From positions 1 through 41,968 of the forward strand of contig CAIPAY010000083.1 in assembly GCA_903863195.1 (NCBI GenBank): a stretch of DNA of 41,968 bases, read 5' to 3'. The notes beneath the pieces were generated by a model. That model was not told the DNA's origin, made no database searches, and saw only the letters and a list, made by a program, of their open reading frames with translations. A program made the position numbers and the translations under genes. Numbering within the stretch: position 1 is the stretch's first letter; every line of letters begins with the position of its first letter. Positions 21,764 through 29,340 of this stretch are shown piece after piece. This DNA comes from an uncultured Holophagaceae bacterium (GTDB taxonomy: Bacteria; Acidobacteriota; Holophagae; Holophagales; Holophagaceae).

Positions 21764-23596
21764 CTACTCCACCGTGACGCTCTTGGCCAGGTTGCGAGGT
21801 TGGTCCACGTCGCAGCCGCGCAGGACGGCGATGTGGTACGCCAGCAGCTGCAGGGGCACGGCGTAGACGATGGGGGTCAGCCAGGGGTGGACCGGTGGCA
21901 GCTCCAGCACGTCCTCGGCGATGCCCGCGAGGCCCGTGTCCCCCTCGGTGACCAGGGCGAGGATGCGCCCGTCCCGGGCGGCGGCCTCCTGCAGGTTGCT
22001 GAGGGTCTTGTCCCGGTGGGCGTCCCGGGGCATCAGGGCCACCACGGGCAGGGTCTTGTCGATGAGGGCGATGGGACCGTGCTTCATCTCGCCTGCGGGG
22101 TAGCCCTCGGCGTGGATGTAGGAGATCTCCTTGAGCTTAAGGGCGCCTTCCAGGGCGATGGGGTAGCAGGGGCCGCGGCCCAGATACAGGAAGTCCGTGG
22201 CGCCCTGCCAGCGGTTGGCCCACTGGATGATCTTGGGCTCCAGGGCGTTGAGGCGCTCCAGGTGGGCAGGCAGCTCGCGCAGCCCCTGCAGCAGCTCGGC
22301 CTTCAGGACGGGGTCCACGGTACCCTTGGCCTCGCCGAGCTTGAGGGCCAGCAGGGTGAGCACCGCCAGCTGGGTGGTGAAGGCCTTGGTGGAGGCCACC
22401 CCGATCTCGGGGCCCGCATGGGTGAGGATCGTGGCTTCGGACTGCCGCGTGGCAGTGGAGCCCAGGACGTTGCAGATGGCCAGGGTGCGTGCGCCCCGGG
22501 CGGCGGCCTCCTTCATGGCGGCCAGGGTGTCGGCGGTCTCCCCGCTCTGGGTGATGCCGATGATGAGCGTGCCGGGCTGGATCACCGGCTCGCGGTAGCG
22601 ATACTCGCTGGCGTAGTCCACCTCGACGGCCACCCGGCTCAGCTGCTCGATGAGGAACTTCCCCACGAGGCCGGAGTGCCAGCTGGTGCCGCAGGCCACG
22701 ATGTGGATGCGGGTGAGGGCGGCGAGTTCCTCGGTGGTGAAGGGCAGGTCCAGGGGGATGGGCTCGCTGTCCAGTGGCAGCCGGTTCAGCAGCGTGTTGG
22801 AGAGGGCCTGGGGCTGCTCGAAGATCTCCTTCTGCATGAAGTGCTTGTAGCCGCGCTTCTCGGCGGACACGGGGTCGTAGGGGATGGTAACCACCGGGCG
22901 CTGCACGTCGGTGCCATCCTGCTGGAAGATGCGGGCGCCCTCGCGGGTCAGCTCGGCGAAATCGCCATCCTCCAGGAAGATGACCCGGCGGGTGTGGGGC
23001 AGGAGGGGCACCACATCCGAGGCCAGGAAGGTCTCTCCCTCGCCCAGACCAAGCACCATGGGCGGGCCGCTGCGGGCGGCCAGGATGCGGTCGGGGTCCG
23101 AGGCGTGCAGGCAGGCCAGGGCGTAGATGCCCTTCATGCGGCCCACAGCCTCGCGGAAGGCTTCCGAGAAGGAGCGCCCCTGCTTCATCAGGTAGGACAC
23201 CATCACCGGGAAGCACTCCGTGTCCGTCTCGGAGGTGAAGACCTCCCCGGCGGCCGTCAGTTCCGCGCGCAGCTCCAGGAAGTTCTCGAAGATGCCGTTG
23301 TGCACGGCCACGACCTGGCCGTCCGCGCTGCGGTGGGGATGGGCGTTCTCCTCTGTGGGCCGGCCGTGGGTGGCCCAGCGGGTATGGCCGATGCCCAGCG
23401 GAGTGGGATCGGCCATATCGACCTTTCCCGCGAGGTTCACCAGCTTGCCCGAGGCCCGGGTGATGTGGAACGTGCCGGAGCCCGTGGCAAGGGCCACGCC
23501 GGCGCTGTCATAGCCGCGGTATTCCAGGCTGCGCAAACCGTTCACCAGGATGCCGACGGCGCTCTGGTTGCCAATGTAGCCGACGATTCCACACAT
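21764..23596 (-). CDS. glmS: Glutamine-fructose-6-phosphate aminotransferase (isomerizing)
   Basis: GlmS makes glucosamine-6-phosphate from fructose-6-phosphate and glutamine, the first step to UDP-GlcNAc for peptidoglycan and lipid A. The 610-residue product begins MCGIVGYIG with catalytic Cys immediately after Met, as processing requires, so this ATG is the start (with GGGAG upstream) and the 22 extra upstream codons are not used. The N-terminal glutaminase (1-240; RWATHGRPTEENAHPH) is followed by two SIS isomerase domains (GTSWHSGLVGKF; ITQSGETADTLAA; YLGRGPCYPIALEGALKLKE) and the conserved end LAKSVTVE. No glmS ribozyme is evident in the short leader. Confidence 0.97.
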   Translation of the reverse strand: MCGIVGYIGNQSAVGILVNGLRSLEYRGYDSAGVALATGSGTFHITRASGKLVNLAGKVDMADPTPLGIGHTRWATHGRPTEENAHPHRSADGQVVAVHNGIFENFLELRAELTAAGEVFTSETDTECFPVMVSYLMKQGRSFSEAFREAVGRMKGIYALACLHASDPDRILAARSGPPMVLGLGEGETFLASDVVPLLPHTRRVIFLEDGDFAELTREGARIFQQDGTDVQRPVVTIPYDPVSAEKRGYKHFMQKEIFEQPQALSNTLLNRLPLDSEPIPLDLPFTTEELAALTRIHIVACGTSWHSGLVGKFLIEQLSRVAVEVDYASEYRYREPVIQPGTLIIGITQSGETADTLAAMKEAAARGARTLAICNVLGSTATRQSEATILTHAGPEIGVASTKAFTTQLAVLTLLALKLGEAKGTVDPVLKAELLQGLRELPAHLERLNALEPKIIQWANRWQGATDFLYLGRGPCYPIALEGALKLKEISYIHAEGYPAGEMKHGPIALIDKTLPVVALMPRDAHRDKTLSNLQEAAARDGRILALVTEGDTGLAGIAEDVLELPPVHPWLTPIVYAVPLQLLAYHIAVLRGCDVDQPRNLAKSVTVE

Positions 23597-23701
23597 AGGA
23601 GCTCCCTGTTCTTCTTTCAAGGTAGCGGGGTGGTCCTGCGGATCCAATGTGGTTCCTGCCACCCGGTCTGCGGCAGGGCAAGCCCCACACCCTGTGGCAG
23701 A

Positions 23702-24883
23702 TCAGCCGCGCCTGCCTGTAAAAAAGCGCAACACCTGCTTCTTCAGGCGGCTGGTGAGGAAGGGGCCGAGGCGCTTCTTCTCCCGCAGGATCTGGATGAA
23801 GAGGTCGCGCTTCTTGCGCGGGGGCATGGTCCGGTTGGCGGCGGGCACCAGGCGCAGGGCTCCCTTTTCGCAGGCGGAGATGCAGGCCCCGCAGCCGAGG
23901 CAGACCCGCTCCCGCACGGCGGCGAAGCGGTCTGCCGGGGTCTCGAAGACAGGCCCCTTGGCGAGGCCGATGGCCTTGACATTGCAGGTGCTGAAGCAGG
24001 TGCCGCAGTAGTCGCAGGCCTCGGGATCGATGACGGCCGTGAAGCCGGTCTTGGCGATGCCGTCGTGGTGGCCCATCTGGACGCCGGCCATGAGCTCGCA
24101 GCAGCAGCGGCAGCAGTTGCAGATGAAGGAGGGCTGCTCGCGGATGTTGTCCGTGACGTGGGTGAGGCGCAGGTCCCGGGCCCGGTCGATGACCTCCAGC
24201 AGTTCCGCCTCGGTCTTCAGCTCCGCGAAGCCGCGCCGGGACAGGAACTTTGCCGCGCTGCCCAGGGAGATGCAGATACCCTCCACCGGGGCGCCCTTGG
24301 CGCAGGTCTTCCCCTGGTGCTCCTTCTTGTGCCGGCAGTAGCAGAGGCCCACGGCCCCGGTCCCGGCCCGGCGGATGAGCTCCCGGGCCTGCTCGTAGGT
24401 GGCGATCTCGGAGGTGACGGGGATGTGCTCCTCGTAGGCCAGGGTGCGGGTGAGCTGGGTCTTGCTGCCGAAGAACTCCTTGGCCTGGCTCTCCTCCAGG
24501 TACTCCCGCATCAGCCGCGCCACCCGCTCCATGGGCAGGTCCGTGCGCCGCTTCATGAAGGTGAACTCGAAGAACCCGATGAGCCCGGGCATCAGCAGGT
24601 AGTAGGTCGTGCCGGCATAGGGCATGTCCATGACCAGGCCCTTGTCCGCCATGGTTTCCAGCAGTGGCTGCAGCTCGGCCCCGGGCAGGTCCGTGGCCCG
24701 GACCAGCTCCGCCAGCGTGGCTTCCTCCAGGGGGAACCGCGAGGCCACGAAGGCCTCCCGCTCGTCGAAGAGCAGGCTGAGGATCTCGCGGAGCTTGTCG
24801 CTGTCCACCAGGCCGATGGGGTACTTGTTCAGGCGGTCGATGAGGGGGATCAGGCTGTCTTTGGTGCCGAGGTGGTGTCCCAT
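23702..24883 (-). CDS. Cysteine-rich 4Fe-4S dicluster protein with N-terminal winged-helix-like region
   Basis: The 393-residue product has two C-terminal ferredoxin motifs, CDYCGTCFSTC (C290-C300) and CLGCGACISAC (C328-C338), enough for two [4Fe-4S] clusters. Upstream are extra cysteines at CYCRHKKEHQGKTC (C181-C194), C204 and the dense cluster CNCCRCCC (C255-C262), which may hold a further cluster or metal. Residues about 25-100 look like a winged helix (LAELVRATDLPGAELQPLLE). Proteins with this layout occur in anaerobic and metal-reducing bacteria, but I know of no established function; electron transfer or redox sensing are candidates. It is 105 bp upstream of glmS. No clear ribosome site precedes the ATG. 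Confidence 0.75.
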   Translation of the reverse strand: MGHHLGTKDSLIPLIDRLNKYPIGLVDSDKLREILSLLFDEREAFVASRFPLEEATLAELVRATDLPGAELQPLLETMADKGLVMDMPYAGTTYYLLMPGLIGFFEFTFMKRRTDLPMERVARLMREYLEESQAKEFFGSKTQLTRTLAYEEHIPVTSEIATYEQARELIRRAGTGAVGLCYCRHKKEHQGKTCAKGAPVEGICISLGSAAKFLSRRGFAELKTEAELLEVIDRARDLRLTHVTDNIREQPSFICNCCRCCCELMAGVQMGHHDGIAKTGFTAVIDPEACDYCGTCFSTCNVKAIGLAKGPVFETPADRFAAVRERVCLGCGACISACEKGALRLVPAANRTMPPRKKRDLFIQILREKKRLGPFLTSRLKKQVLRFFTGRRG

Positions 24884-24949
24884 AGGCGAAGTCTAGGACC
24901 GCCGGGCCATGACCAGAAGCACGATGCCCCCAGGACCCAGCCGAGGCGC

Positions 24950-25756
24950 CTAGCGGCTCCGGTTGCCCGGCTGGGAGGTCCACGCCACCGGCGGCCGGTG
25001 CTTGAGCACCCAGGCCGTGTCCACCCAGCCGGCCAGAAGCAGCAGGCCCGCGGTGAGGGCCAGGGTGACCGACACCCAGCGATGGCCCCGCTGCAGATCG
25101 GCCCGGCCCTGGGCCACCTGCAGGTAGCCGGCGATGCCCAGGCCCAGAGTGCCGCCTGCCAGCAGGCCCAGCCACAGGTGGACCAGGTCCTGGAAGGCCC
25201 ACGCTCCCATGAGCCGCTGGCTGAGCCAGCGCACCCCGGCGAAGAAGGCCGTCCAGGTCACCAGGTCCAGCAGCAGCCACAGGGACCGGGAGCGCACCTG
25301 GATGGACACCGCATGAAAGAGCAGCAGCAGGAACAGGCTCCCGGCCAGGCCGATCCCGAGGATGGACCCAGCATCCTTGAGCAGGAACTGCCTCCACATG
25401 CCACCAAGCAGAAGCGCCGGGACGCTGGCGAGGAGGCCTGCGAGCAGGGCCAGGCCAAGGCCCGCCAGCACCTTGCCCAGGAAGATCTGGGCCGCATGGA
25501 GGGGTTGGTTCAGAAAGAAGCCGAAGCGCCGCTCCTCAAGATCCCGGCTCACCATGGTCGCTCCGAACAGAAGGGCGATGACCCAGGCGAGGCCGATCCC
25601 CACTCCTACCGACATGAAGATGGATTTCTCGTAGGCGATCTTCATGTCTGACTCAAAGGACAGCCCGATGAGTTGCAAGACGCTGTAGCCCAGGCCCAGC
25701 AGGAGGACATTGCGGCGGCCGGTCCACTCCCGGCGGGTGACGGCAAGGATGCTCAT
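24950..25756 (-). CDS. ABC transporter permease (ABC-2 type)
   Basis: The 268-residue product has about six hydrophobic segments (for example IGLAWVIALLFGATM, LAGLGLALLAGLLASVPALL, ILGIGLAGSLFLLLLFHAV) and no ATPase motifs. The block TMVSRDLEERRFGFFLNQPL before the second helix resembles ABC-2 type exporters. Its start overlaps the ATPase stop by four bases. The gene is the third of a gntR-ATPase-permease operon; substrate unknown, with efflux of a toxic or antibiotic compound typical for YtrA-controlled transporters. Confidence 0.82.
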   Translation of the reverse strand: MSILAVTRREWTGRRNVLLLGLGYSVLQLIGLSFESDMKIAYEKSIFMSVGVGIGLAWVIALLFGATMVSRDLEERRFGFFLNQPLHAAQIFLGKVLAGLGLALLAGLLASVPALLLGGMWRQFLLKDAGSILGIGLAGSLFLLLLFHAVSIQVRSRSLWLLLDLVTWTAFFAGVRWLSQRLMGAWAFQDLVHLWLGLLAGGTLGLGIAGYLQVAQGRADLQRGHRWVSVTLALTAGLLLLAGWVDTAWVLKHRPPVAWTSQPGNRSR

Positions 25757-26640
25757 GAGGCCACCTCGGCTTCGCCCACCAGGGCGACAAACAGCTCTTC
25801 CAAAGACAAGGGATGGACCTGCAGGCCCGGGAGCTGGCTGGGATCACCCTGGGTGAGAATGGCCTCCCCGCCCAGGCTGCCCGTGCGGCTCCAGAGGGGT
25901 GCGAAGGGAGCAAGGTCGGTGGGGGCCACCGCTTGGCTGGGTGCCCAGCTCACCTTCCGGTGCCTGGCCTTGAGGTCCTCCAGGCTGGCGTCCACCAGGA
26001 GCCGGCCCTGGTGCAGGATGCCGATGCGGTCCGCCAGGCCCTCGATGCCCGCCAGGTCGTGGGTGGTGATGAACACCGTGGTGCCCCGCTCCGCCAGCTC
26101 CCCCAGGAGCTCGTCGTAGACCTCGCGCCGGGCCACGGCGTCCAGGCCCAGCGTCGGGTCGTCCAGCACCAGCAGGTCCGGCTCGGGGCCCAGGGCCAGG
26201 GCCAGGGCGACCTGCCCCTTCTGGCCTCGCGAAAGGCGGCCGAAGGGCAGGTCCAGGGGTATCCGGAAGCGGTCCAGCCGCTCGTCCACGCCCGCCTGGT
26301 CCCAGCTGGGATAGAGGCCCCCGCAGAAGCGGACCAGCTGCCGGGCGGTCATGAGCGGCGGCGCGTCCGGTTCCTCGGCCACCACGCCCACGCGGTGCAT
26401 GAGGGCCTGGCGGGCGGACCAGACGTCCTGGCCATAGAGCTCGACCCGGCCCGCGGTGGGTTTCTGGTGGCCCAGCAGGCAGCGCACCAGGGACGTCTTG
26501 CCCGAGCCGTTGCGCCCCAGCAGGGCGTAGACCTGGCCTGGCTCGACCTGGAAGGTGGCCTCCTCCACGGCCTGGGTTCGGCCGTAGCGCACCCCCACCT
26601 GGCGGCAGGCCACGGGCAGGGTCTCCACTTGGCTGATCAT
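25753..26640 (-). CDS. ABC transporter ATP-binding protein
   Basis: The 295-residue ATPase has Walker A GRNGSGKTS (about 42-50), the signature LSRGQKGQVALALAL, Walker B DLLVLDDPTLGLDAVARREV in two parts, and the switch histidine in TVFITTHDLAGIE. The ATG (MISQVETL) overlaps the gntR stop by four bases and has GGGAGG upstream; the longer open frame to 27000 only runs through gntR in another frame. Together with the downstream permease it forms a two-component exporter. Confidence 0.93.
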   Translation of the reverse strand: MISQVETLPVACRQVGVRYGRTQAVEEATFQVEPGQVYALLGRNGSGKTSLVRCLLGHQKPTAGRVELYGQDVWSARQALMHRVGVVAEEPDAPPLMTARQLVRFCGGLYPSWDQAGVDERLDRFRIPLDLPFGRLSRGQKGQVALALALGPEPDLLVLDDPTLGLDAVARREVYDELLGELAERGTTVFITTHDLAGIEGLADRIGILHQGRLLVDASLEDLKARHRKVSWAPSQAVAPTDLAPFAPLWSRTGSLGGEAILTQGDPSQLPGLQVHPLSLEELFVALVGEAEVAS

Positions 26641-27044
26641 GACTTGCCTCCCGTCCGGACTGGCTTGAGGGTCTTCCAGGCTGTGCCTAGGCTGCCGGTG
26701 GCCTCCGGCAGGTCCGCGCCCACGGAGAGCGCCGTGGTGGCGAAGCGCAGGGCCCCCTCCCGGAGCAGCCCGAGGCGCTCCGCACGGCTGAAGCCCGGGG
26801 GCGTCTCGGCCACGTAGGTACCGTCCCCCCGGCGCACCGTGAGGACCCCCGCCTCCACCAGGTGCTGGTAGGCCCGCACCACGGTGTTGGGGTTCACCCC
26901 CAGCTCCCGGGCGAGGTCCCGCACCGAGGGCATCAGGGCGCCCGCCGCGAGCCCGCCCGTGGCCACCAGACGCCGCACGCCGTCCTCGATCTGCCGCCAC
27001 AGGGGCGCTGCTTCTGCTGGATCCACCTGAAGGATGGCCTTCAT
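26637..27044 (-). CDS. GntR-family transcriptional regulator, YtrA-type
   Basis: The 135-residue product is a short GntR regulator: a winged helix at about 10-75 (LMPSVRDLARELGVNPNTVV, RAYQHLVEAGVLTVRRGDGTYV in two pieces) followed by only about 50 residues, the size of YtrA-type regulators that dimerise by two helices. Such proteins repress their own operon with a linked ABC exporter. The operator-like palindrome just upstream and the coupled ABC genes downstream match that model. The inducer is unknown. Confidence 0.9.
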   Translation of the reverse strand: MKAILQVDPAEAAPLWRQIEDGVRRLVATGGLAAGALMPSVRDLARELGVNPNTVVRAYQHLVEAGVLTVRRGDGTYVAETPPGFSRAERLGLLREGALRFATTALSVGADLPEATGSLGTAWKTLKPVRTGGKS

Positions 27045-27062
27045 GCTGCGTCTCCCGAACGA

Positions 27063-27092
27063 ATTACTGTATCACTGAACTAATACAGTAAT
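27063..27092. promoter_or_regulatory. Palindromic operator of the gntR-ABC operon
   Basis: ATTACTGTAT and ATACAGTAAT form a perfect inverted repeat of ten-base arms around a ten-base spacer, 19 bp before the gntR start. On the minus strand TTGACG (27112-27107) can serve as -35, with a -10-like box (TACTGT or TGTATT, 27090-27082) inside the outer arm, so a bound regulator would block transcription. The arms are AT-rich against a GC-rich background. Confidence 0.75.
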
Positions 27093-27168
27093 CCAGAGAA
27101 GGCAGCCGTCAAGGGGCAACTAATAGCGCCGACCAAGGCGGGTCTCCCGATGCCGGAAGTTGATACAA

Positions 27169-27197
27169 GAGAAAGCCCGGCTGCGCCGGGCTTTCTC
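27169..27197 (-). terminator. Terminator hairpin after the flhA-fliN operon
   Basis: A perfect 13-bp stem GAGAAAGCCCGGC / GCCGGGCTTTCTC with a three-base loop. On the minus strand the tail reads TTTCTCTTGT, T-rich after the stem. It lies 170 bp past fliN and before gntR; it could also work in the plus direction. Confidence 0.7.
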
Positions 27198-27219
27198 GCG
27201 GGGGCGCTGGGGTATGCGC

Positions 27220-27312
27220 GCAGCGCCCTCCGCCTGACGGGCCCTGCCCCGCAGCGCCCTCCGCCTGACGGGCCCTGCCCCGCAGCGCCCTCCGCCTGAC
27301 GGGCCCTGCCCC
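27220..27312. repeat. 31-bp tandem repeat, three perfect copies
   Basis: Units at 27220-27250, 27251-27281 and 27282-27312 are identical, beginning GCAGCGCCCTCCGCCTGACG and ending in GCCCC; a degenerate fourth copy starts at 27313. The repeats sit between fliN and its terminator. The 322-bp gap 27045-27366 contains only this, the terminator and the operator; no gene was seen. Confidence 0.95.
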
Positions 27313-27366
27313 GCAGGGCCCTCCTGCTCGCATGCTCGCAGAGTCGGAGCCTCCCCCCGGAGGATG

Positions 27367-28320
27367 CTAGGCCAGGCTGCGGATCCGGGCGGCTCGCGTG
27401 TCGATCTCCGTGATGCGGAAAGCGAAGTTGCCGTCCACCACCACGACCTCGCCCTTGGCGATGAGCTTGCCGTTCACCAGCAGCTCCACGGGGGCGTCGG
27501 CGCTGCGGTTTAGCTCCAGGATGGAGCCCGGCGTGAGCTTCAGCAGCTCCCCCATCTGCATCTCCGTCTGGCCCATGCGCACGACCACCGGCAGCTGGAT
27601 GTCCAGCAGCAGCTCCAGGTTGCCCGAGTCGTGCATGGGTCCCGCAGCCACCGGTGCCTGATGGCGGGCCTGGGCCGGCGAGGAACCGCCCGAGGGCGCC
27701 TGGGCGGCGCTGGCGGTCGGGACTTCCTCCGGTGGCGGCGCGGCCTGGAGCTCGCCGAAGCCCAGCTTCCGCTTGAGCTGCTGCAGCAGCAGGTCCGGGA
27801 GCAGCAGGTGGATGGTGGTGCTGAGGGAGTCCTGAGTGGTGGCCAGGGCGATGTTCTGGAAGGCGCCCTGACCCAGTTGCTCTTCAAAGGCAGAGGCCTC
27901 GGGGGCCATGGCCAGGATCTCCACGTTCGAGATGGCGAAGGTCTCGCCCGCCAGGTCTGAGAGGGTCTGGTTGGCACTGCCCATGACCTGGTTGAAGGTC
28001 TCGGCCAGGGCGTCCTTGGAGTCGCCCACCAGCTCCTCACTGGGCGCGCCGTCGCCGCCCAGCATGAGGTCCACCAGGATGGTGCCCTCCTTGAGGGGGA
28101 GGCTGAAGATGATCGTGCCGCTCAGGCCCTTCTGGTAGTTCGCCTTCACCAGGACCGAGGTGCCCTCCTGCAAGGCCGCGGTGCCTGCGGCGTCCACCAG
28201 CTCGCCCGGGGCCGCCTTGAGCTGGAACTCCCGGCCGGTGAGCATCGAGAACACCGAGGCCATGCTCTCGGCGAAGGCACTGCCGGTTTTCTGTAAGAAC
28301 TCCGTATCACGGGCATCCAT
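27367..28320 (-). CDS. fliN: Flagellar switch protein FliN/FliY with CheC-like domain
   Basis: FliN forms the base of the C ring with FliM. The 317-residue product has a C-terminal SpoA/FliN domain (about 235-310: LLLDIQLPVVVRMGQTEMQM, PGSILELNRSADAPVELLVN, GEVVVVDGNFAFRI) and a CheC/CheX-like N-terminal domain (1-190), the FliY architecture. One CheC phosphatase motif is intact (D103, E107, N110 in DALAETFNQVMG); I see no second copy. A Pro/Ala-rich linker (190-232) joins the parts. Typical FliN is 100-150 residues. It follows fliM by three bases and ends the operon. Confidence 0.92.
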   Translation of the reverse strand: MDARDTEFLQKTGSAFAESMASVFSMLTGREFQLKAAPGELVDAAGTAALQEGTSVLVKANYQKGLSGTIIFSLPLKEGTILVDLMLGGDGAPSEELVGDSKDALAETFNQVMGSANQTLSDLAGETFAISNVEILAMAPEASAFEEQLGQGAFQNIALATTQDSLSTTIHLLLPDLLLQQLKRKLGFGELQAAPPPEEVPTASAAQAPSGGSSPAQARHQAPVAAGPMHDSGNLELLLDIQLPVVVRMGQTEMQMGELLKLTPGSILELNRSADAPVELLVNGKLIAKGEVVVVDGNFAFRITEIDTRAARIRSLA

Positions 28321-28323
28321 GGC

Positions 28324-29340
28324 TCATCCTTCCGACCGGCTGCCGGTCACTTGGAACACGCGTTTCCCATTGGGGTTCAGGGCCACCAGGCCCCGGTAGC
28401 GCGGAATGCCGTCCACGCAGAGGTCGAGCTCGGCGTCGAAGCGCTTGGTCAGCGGGATGAGGTCGCCGGCCTTGAGCTGGAGGACCTCCTCCATGCTGAG
28501 GCTGGTGCCGTGGATCTCCGCCGCCGCCTCCATGGGGCACTTCTTGAGGCTGGCCATGAGGAGGCGGGCCTCCTCGAAGGACGAGGACTTCTTGTAGCCC
28601 GTGAACATCTCCTGGTCGAACTTGCTGGAGATGGGCTCCAGGATGATGCTCGGGATGGCCAGGTTGATCATCCCCGAGACCGGCCCCATCTTCACCTCGA
28701 AGACCACCAGCAGGACCACCTCGTTGGGCGCCACGATCTGGATGAGCTGGGGGCTGGTCTCCCGGGCCTGGATGCGGAAGTCCAGGTCCACGATGCCGCG
28801 CCAGGATTCCCGGATGTCCTCGAGCAGCAGCTTGAGGATGCCGTCAAAGATGCTCTGCTCGATGTCGGTCATGGTGCGGAGCTGCTTCAGGGGCTCCCCA
28901 GGTCCGCCCAGCATCTTGTCGATGATGGGGAAGACCAGCGTGGGGTTGACCTCCAGGGCCAGGGCACCCTCCAGGGGCTTGATGGAGATGGCGTTGAAGC
29001 AGGTCGGGTCGGGCACGGACAGCAGGAACTCCTGGTAGCTGAGCTGCTCGACGCTCACCAGGTTCACTTCGGTGATGGTGCGGAGGTAGGCGCTCAGGGA
29101 ACTGGAGAAGTTCCGGGCGAAGCGGTCGTGCATGAAGTGCAGGGACCGCATCTGCTCCCGGCTCACCCGGTCCGGTCGGCGGAAGTTGTAGAGGGAGACC
29201 TTGCGCTGGGCCTGGGCTTTTTTTGCCTGGGCCGTCGCCGTCGGCCGCTCCCCGCCGCCCCCGCCCGAAGCCTTCCCGGCCGGCTTGGTATGCGACTTAA
29301 GTAGAGCGTCTACTTCCTCTTGGCTTAGGATCTTGGCCAT
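28324..29340 (-). CDS. fliM: Flagellar motor switch protein FliM
   Basis: FliM receives phosphorylated CheY and transmits it to FliG. The 338-residue product begins with the CheY-binding motif LSQEEVDALL (residues 5-14), then a Gly/Ala/Lys-rich linker, the CheC-like middle domain (YNFRRPDRVSREQMRSLHFM; FLLSVPDPTCFNAISIKPLE; PTLVFPIIDKMLGGPGEP) and the C-terminal SpoA domain (LQLKAGDLIPLTKRFDAELD). Three bases separate it from fliA upstream and fliN downstream. The intact N-terminal peptide predicts chemotactic switching. Confidence 0.96.
   Translation of the reverse strand: MAKILSQEEVDALLKSHTKPAGKASGGGGGERPTATAQAKKAQAQRKVSLYNFRRPDRVSREQMRSLHFMHDRFARNFSSSLSAYLRTITEVNLVSVEQLSYQEFLLSVPDPTCFNAISIKPLEGALALEVNPTLVFPIIDKMLGGPGEPLKQLRTMTDIEQSIFDGILKLLLEDIRESWRGIVDLDFRIQARETSPQLIQIVAPNEVVLLVVFEVKMGPVSGMINLAIPSIILEPISSKFDQEMFTGYKKSSSFEEARLLMASLKKCPMEAAAEIHGTSLSMEEVLQLKAGDLIPLTKRFDAELDLCVDGIPRYRGLVALNPNGKRVFQVTGSRSEG

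Follow-up and report, generated by a model that had tools for sequence, protein, structure and literature searches.

The Cys-dense protein encoded on the minus strand at positions 23702..24883 of the window, i.e. the whole stretch of 41,968 nucleotides analysed here, appears to be related to the N-terminal module of IsrA-type NAD(P)H/FAD/Fe-S reductases, but occurs as a separate protein. Its homology to a set of large fusion proteins is evident from profile comparison, while the kinship of these fusions to IsrA is one that we infer. As the front half of the protein is common to a candidate isoprene-reducing enzyme, its role is probably electron transport to an unusual metal site and not the switching of genes. 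The open reading frame starts with ATG and codes for 393 amino acids, 18 of which are cysteines (4.6% of the residues vs 0.4% in the other called window ORFs of more than 200 aa). Fer4 is the sole Pfam family above cut-off, and among the curated families no NCBIfam model comes close to its cut-off. The features of the gene and its surroundings are the following:

23702..24883, minus strand: the gene itself, with winged helix, Cys-rich alpha/beta domain, two Fer4 motifs and C-terminal helices (ORF, Pfam, AlphaFold2)
24587..24808, minus strand: acidic winged-helix domain, residues 26-99 (AlphaFold2 model, structural matches, charge)
24554..24577, minus strand: conserved GFFEFTFM segment after the winged helix, residues 103-110 (69-row alignment)
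24098..24466, minus strand: Cys-rich alpha/beta domain, residues 140-262, with a homologue in the N-terminal Cys domain of the putative IsrA-type fusions (profile comparison)
24272..24343, minus strand: C181-x-C183...C194...C204 with the invariant R184 (alignments)
24098..24121, minus strand: CxCCxCCC, residues 255-262, of which C255, C257 and C262 are part of a six-Cys core (alignments)
23984..24016, minus strand: first Fer4 motif, C290-C300 (Pfam Fer4 in two stretches and Cys pattern)
23870..23902, minus strand: second Fer4 motif, C328-C338 (Pfam Fer4, residues 325-343)
23717..23812, minus strand: C-terminal helices, residues 358-389 (AlphaFold2 model)
21764..23662, minus strand: downstream neighbour with SIS and GATase domains, probably glmS, flanking the insertion site (domains)
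24950..27044, minus strand: three genes, for a GntR regulator, an ABC ATPase and an ABC-2-like membrane protein, which separate fliN from the gene (domains)
27367..28320, minus strand: presumably a fliN-like flagellar gene, on the other side of the insertion site (named by reading)

In addition to the eight Cys of the Fer4 motifs (C290/293/296/300 and C328/331/334/338) the protein has ten further ones, forming an upstream group C181-x-C183-x10-C194-x9-C204 and the group CNCCRCCC at residues 255-262 (C255, C257, C258, C260, C261, C262). The first-pass annotation had listed two ferredoxin motifs together with CxC-x10-C and CxCCxCCC; this is correct and only C204 has to be added. The two CxxCxxCxxxC motifs, above the Pfam cut-off, are shared with bacterial-type 2[4Fe-4S] ferredoxins, but this part comprises only about 60 of the 393 residues and all of the upstream sequence is extra. 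In an alignment of 69 sequences (A2; the window protein and 68 relatives from many phyla) 17 of the 18 Cys, including all eight Fer4 Cys, are present in 69/69 rows and C261 in 68/69, so the pattern is not a product of chance and extends to the upstream Cys, whose conservation in homologues had been a point to check. R184 and N246 are invariant and H185 and H189 near-invariant in the same domain as the ten extra Cys. The N-terminus M-G-H is also kept (M1 and H3 at 90% or more), in the GFFEFTFM segment G103, E106 and M110 are invariant and F104 near-invariant, and the tail 357-393 is basic in most rows.

For a wider count we used 181 distinct rows in four classes of our own assignment, after removal of exact duplicates and of rows with fewer than 90 aligned letters. 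C181, C183, C204, C255, C257 and C262 are present in every row of each class, with 56 window-type, 101 other stand-alone, 14 short or divergent and 10 fusion rows. The complete set of ten non-ferredoxin Cys is seen in each of the window-type rows (56/56) and in 99/101 of the other stand-alone rows. Counted one at a time, C194, C258, C260 and C261 are found in 12, 13, 12 and 13 of the 14 short or divergent rows, and the fusions have them in 9, 7, 7 and 0 of ten cases. We thus see here a six-Cys core with a ten-Cys version in the stand-alone family. The ten-Cys site may hold one large cluster, two clusters or a cluster and another metal.

The family is large and widely distributed among anaerobes. 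A scan over GTDB species confirmed at least 519 relatives among at least 592 pattern matches, and 39 of the 199 genomes of the window's own phylum have a member at E <= 1e-20. Three plasmid records, two from Cetobacterium and one from Acetoanaerobium, also carry relatives at this threshold, whose annotation goes no further than 4Fe-4S binding or dicluster-binding protein. In a tree of 54 members the window protein lies within a clade of 24 rows (support 99/99) together with Desulfuromonadales, Desulfobulbaceae/Desulfopila, Neomarinimicrobiota, Nitrospina, purple sulfur bacteria and some Deltaproteobacteria records; its position next to Geobacter inside this clade is weakly supported (85/79). 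The same genome holds a second copy, 36% identical and on a different contig, that falls into a distant clade with 4/6 of the other added acidobacterial copies and a Holophagaceae record (L131). A literature search for the motif CxCCxCCC found nothing and one for CNCCGCCC gave unrelated matches only; among the matches listed none names the family in its title or the start of its abstract, and no activity was found reported there for any stand-alone member.

The link to larger enzymes came from the middle domain. The distant copy L106 comes from the Desulfosporosinus genome G229, and in 199 genomes of that phylum the profile of this domain gave 44 matches at E <= 1e-6 including proteins of 895-955 aa; 10 of the 11 matches in frames of more than 800 aa were taken as the fusion set. 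Two of these were scanned and have Fer4 motifs, Fer4_20 (PF14691) and Pyr_redox_2 (PF07992) behind the winged-helix and Cys region. A single profile-profile comparison of the window family with the ten fusions of about 900 aa gave a probability of 99.95 and an E of 1.7e-38, and the 302 aligned columns run from the winged helix up to and including the first Fer4. With the family profile all ten fusions are recovered at E <= 8.4e-36; a search in the other direction, with the fusion profile, recovers the window protein at 3e-31 (Z set to 50,000).

In Acetobacterium wieringae the putative isoprene reductase is IsrA (901 aa), whose role rests on proteogenomics and RT-PCR, not on purified enzyme (Kronen et al. 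2023, PMC10134865). According to the same source no domain was predictable for its first ~270 residues, and this stretch can be aligned with a ferredoxin of 350 aa from the isr operon. In the authors' model six Cys including C180-x-C182 and C254-x-C256 are brought together as 'cluster V', which lies beyond four canonical clusters at the end of a substrate tunnel and is discussed as a possible nickel site closest to the substrate (PMC10134865). HypA, HypB and DUF5692 are the reported neighbours of IsrA homologues, with hypA and hypB next to 73% and 56% of 988 of them (PMC10134865). Among the literature matches listed, including those from 2023 on, there was no follow-up on IsrA.

The CxC-to-CxC spacing of 74 residues that separates C180/182 from C254/256 in IsrA is the same between 181 and 255 in the window protein and in the five fusions checked (211/285, 188/262, 183/257 twice and 221/295). 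Because length, domains, neighbours and CxC spacing agree we infer that the fusions are IsrA homologues, and C181, C183, C204, C255, C257 and C262 likely correspond to cluster V, a comparison made by description and through the fusions, with four IsrA Cys positions known. Via the fusions, IsrA and its clade-9 homologues would thus share with the window protein a collinear N-terminal winged helix, the Cys domain with CxC...74...CxC, the six-Cys core and the first Fer4. In contrast to IsrA as described, the window protein has 393 aa, no FAD/NAD(P)H part (PF14691 and PF07992) and no HypA/HypB neighbours, and it has a second adjacent Fer4 motif and four extra Cys, of which C261 is absent in 10/10 fusions. 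The 350-aa '4Fe-4S ferredoxin' of the isr operon (VUZ27135.1) is, like the window protein, stand-alone and has about 270 IsrA-alignable residues followed by a ferredoxin-type domain; for this protein, again compared by description, the authors predict one [4Fe-4S] cluster, whereas the window protein has two Fer4 motifs (PMC10134865).

AlphaFold2, run on the 69-row alignment, gave a model with a mean pLDDT of 92.5 and a pTM of 0.89, reaching 95-98 per ten-residue block over residues 11-100. The layout is a winged helix (26-99), an alpha/beta domain (about 140-262), the ferredoxin region and two C-terminal helices. The winged helix that had been suspected in the first 100 residues is therefore borne out by the predicted fold (H29-38, H41-48, H57-64, H68-80, E84-89, E92-97) and by structural matches to TFE-alpha (1q1h, Z 6.2, rmsd 2.3, 76 aligned) and TrmBL2 (5bqt, Z 6.5, rmsd 3.5, 86 aligned), all with Z below 8; a sub-threshold Pfam hint to HTH_IclR (17.2 bits vs a cut-off of 22) was also seen. 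Although its fold matches that of winged-helix regulators of the TrmB, ArsR and IclR type, the domain differs from them in being acidic, in its fusion to redox domains and in the lack of a conserved basic residue within helix 3 throughout the 69 rows. Its net charge is -8 in the window protein (median -3, range -11 to +4, with 10/69 rows positive); the corresponding stretch in the ten fusions, located by offset, ranges from -9 to +1. Segment 66-81 with helix 3 has a net charge of 0 or below in 62/69 rows, and the conserved positions of the domain are mainly hydrophobic. Charge alone is weak evidence, because the GntR and MerR regulators used as controls (0 and +4) are not strongly basic either.

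The middle domain taken by itself gave no Foldseek match at E <= 0.001 and a VIA Z of at most 4.3 (98 aligned, rmsd 4.2), and a missing fold match in the PDB does not prove a new fold. By sequence, the best 60 of 70 and 60 of 184 PDB matches all cover the ferredoxin end and none the N-terminal half. A membrane-binding amphipathic tail was also considered but is not claimed, as among the 11 rows examined L077 is the only one in which the hydrophobic moment of the tail was clearly above that of the remaining protein.

Of the ten fusion loci, eight have HypA as a neighbour, five HypB and eight a DUF5692 membrane protein. Around fusions L254-L263 an amine-oxidase-like flavoprotein (5/10) and an HTH_23/HTH_Tnp_1-type HTH protein were also noticed. 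Among the loci checked, HypA occurs only at L254-L257, L259-L261, L263, L264 and L268. Neither HypA nor HypB is found near the window gene, the 30 window-type loci or the 28 control loci described below, except for HypB near the divergent copy L187. A HypB 52-57% identical to that of L260 lies near the stand-alone relatives L187 (G311:C54), L108 and L253. HypD is absent in 6/8 genomes with fusions or relatives, of unstated completeness, and present in G520 and G525; its absence fits a use of HypA/HypB for something else than a [NiFe] hydrogenase in these genomes. In the window's genus HypA is present in 6/7 genomes with a window-type gene vs 7/18 without (Fisher p 0.07, with related loci treated as independent); the exception among the seven is G022, which has the gene and lacks HypA.

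A metabolic context was found in one class, the Desulfuromonadia. This assignment, that to Bacillota and the names FadH and EMO are based on a reading of sequences and record titles. Among 146 genomes 32 window-type matches were found, of which 30 were analysed; the other two had been seen before as L058 and L064, both with the operon. As controls we chose, without random draw, 29 non-window family loci of the same class, nearly all of the main type (L167 and L187 are divergent copies), and dropping L181, where no gene was called, left 28. Genes were called with our own script, the flanks of several loci are cut by contig ends, and the Fisher p-values treat related loci as independent. A FadH-like (dienoyl-CoA-reductase-like) gene lies within 6 kb at 18/30 window-type loci vs 0/28 controls, and at least one of ten operon labels at 23/30 vs 2/28. 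The other labels within 6 kb of the 30 loci are MBL (18), MerR (13), chalcone-isomerase-like (12), acyl-CoA dehydrogenase (10), hydratase (10), thioesterase (9), EMO-like (4), thiolase (3) and alpha/beta hydrolase (3), while the controls show one hydratase, one thioesterase and none of the remaining labels. The window-type gene is often the last in a run of acyl-CoA genes that includes a FadH-like Oxidored_FMN/Pyr_redox protein, an acyl-CoA dehydrogenase, an MBL-fold protein and a 4HBT thioesterase; some operons also have a thiolase, a MerR regulator and an EMO-like protein, the last of these carrying Nitrate_red_gam and CCG domains. An enoyl-CoA hydratase gene precedes it directly with a gap of 12-16 bases in L058, L060 and L067, and a chalcone-isomerase-like gene is 4-5 bases away in L068 and L075.

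None of the ten labels occurs at 7/30 Desulfuromonadia loci nor at those from Neomarinimicrobiota, purple sulfur bacteria and Nitrospina. The distant Desulfosporosinus copies L106 and L107 adjoin a FadH-like gene, and in L084 such a gene lies at a distance of four genes; otherwise the labels are rare among L052-L131. The main-type relatives (427 aa) share no metabolic operon, and their recurrent neighbours, at up to 10/29 loci, include recD-like and sensor genes, named by reading. At L160-L163, Desulfuromonadia loci with window-type relatives but without acyl-CoA labels, FKBP-like and aminotransferase-like genes (by reading) were seen as a second context, both at L160 and L163 and one of the two at L161 and L162. 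Another locus, L264 (G525:C8:11000-30500), has four relatives in a 19.5-kb stretch, in a genome with seven matches in total, together with two acyl-CoA dehydrogenases, an enoyl-CoA hydratase, CoA transferases (by reading), HypA, HypB and an ETF-QO-like gene near two of the family copies. The shorter relatives L267, L270 and L271 adjoin genes read as glycine-betaine-type ABC transporter genes and as aldehyde-ferredoxin-oxidoreductase-like or trimethylamine-methyltransferase-like genes.

In the genus of the window the gene is found in 7/25 genomes and adjoins glmS in 7/7. The fliN gene is its direct neighbour in L007 and L008; in the window the GntR-ABC genes stand between the two. Further, fliN and glmS are adjacent in three genus genomes without the gene (L202, L213, L214). 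The junction (window 23662-29340; L202, L205, L213, L214) was seen to be variable, holding the gene, the GntR-ABC cassette, a putative glycosyltransferase gene (L003-L005), other genes (L205) or nothing. We reject a functional link with glmS because of this variability and of the Holophagaceae record L056, where the gene is at a different place without glmS, which also counts against a single site. The GntR-ABC genes, seen at the junction in this genome alone among 22 loci with 1.5-kb flanks, are not part of the system. From the tree and the empty sites we would assume a lateral gain of the single gene in the genus, with loss in the other genomes as the alternative. A co-transfer of a FadH partner is not supported, as a relative 38-41% identical is present in 24/25 genus genomes with or without the window-type gene.

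For the mechanism, we tentatively favour, at a little less than an even chance, that a C=C bond is reduced at a ten-Cys metal site, which receives its electrons via two [4Fe-4S] clusters. A partner flavoprotein would donate electrons to the C-terminal pair of clusters predicted from the Fer4 motifs, from where they would pass to a putative metal in the middle domain held by the core C181, C183, C204, C255, C257 and C262 and the extra C194, C258, C260 and C261. The substrate reduced there would most likely be the C=C bond of an acyl or isoprenoid compound, as IsrA and the acyl-CoA operons suggest. Due to its charge, its hydrophobic conserved positions and its presence in FAD/NAD(P)H proteins, the acidic winged helix may be a docking or structural part and no DNA reader. 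Against this mechanism stands that the acyl-CoA partners did not travel with the gene in this genus, that HypA and HypB are missing near the window gene, that the operon labels are absent at part of the window-type loci and that our literature search found no reported activity of a stand-alone member.

A close rival that we consider somewhat less probable is pure electron transfer, with the protein as a carrier or adaptor whose extra Cys hold further Fe-S clusters and which shuttles electrons between flavoenzymes (acyl-CoA dehydrogenase, FadH-like protein, EMO-like quinone reductase) without chemistry of its own, as the 350-aa ferredoxin may do for IsrA. The two Fer4 motifs fit this, the operons already hold flavoenzymes and in 4/30 cases the EMO-like membrane Fe-S protein, the ETF-QO-like gene of L264 points in the same direction, and the isr operon itself has such a ferredoxin with an IsrA-alignable front (PMC10134865). 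In our judgement, however, nine invariant and one near-invariant Cys together with R184, N246, H185 and H189 seem more than a simple carrier needs, and the matching site in the IsrA model lies beyond the canonical clusters at the tunnel end (PMC10134865). That the protein is instead a metallochaperone or assembly scaffold, whose ten Cys would bind a metal or cluster and pass it on to another enzyme, would agree with the density of the site, with HypA/HypB beside relatives and with the many members without a recurrent neighbour; we regard it as improbable, since a chaperone would not need two Fer4 motifs kept in 69/69 rows and the fusion with an NAD(P)H/FAD module points to electron flow. Slightly more improbable still is a redox-sensing transcription regulator in which Fe-S clusters control DNA binding by the winged helix. 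Its confident fold speaks for such a role, but the domain is acidic without a conserved basic residue in helix 3, the same winged helix stands at the N-terminus of FAD/NAD(P)H proteins, which do not resemble transcription factors, and 13/30 loci already have a MerR regulator nearby. Of the two functions proposed in the first-pass annotation, an electron carrier of unusual cofactor content gains from the conserved extra Cys, the IsrA-type homology and the acyl-CoA redox operons of one class, and the redox-linked regulator loses ground.

Returning to reduction at the ten-Cys site, its widest form is that the stand-alone family, found in many bacterial phyla, is an unrecognised class of reductases with a complex ten-Cys cluster of the nickel-iron-sulfur or double-cubane type, fed by a flavoprotein and hydrogenating acyl or isoprenoid C=C bonds; this we find possible but doubtful. 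By homology, the first ~270 residues of IsrA would consist of a winged helix and a Cys domain that also exist as a separate protein at 519 or more loci, with ten instead of six Cys at the proposed active site. The tie to fatty-acyl genes in Desulfuromonadia suggests candidate substrates, and the protein, being small and made of one chain, lends itself to identifying the metal of this site.
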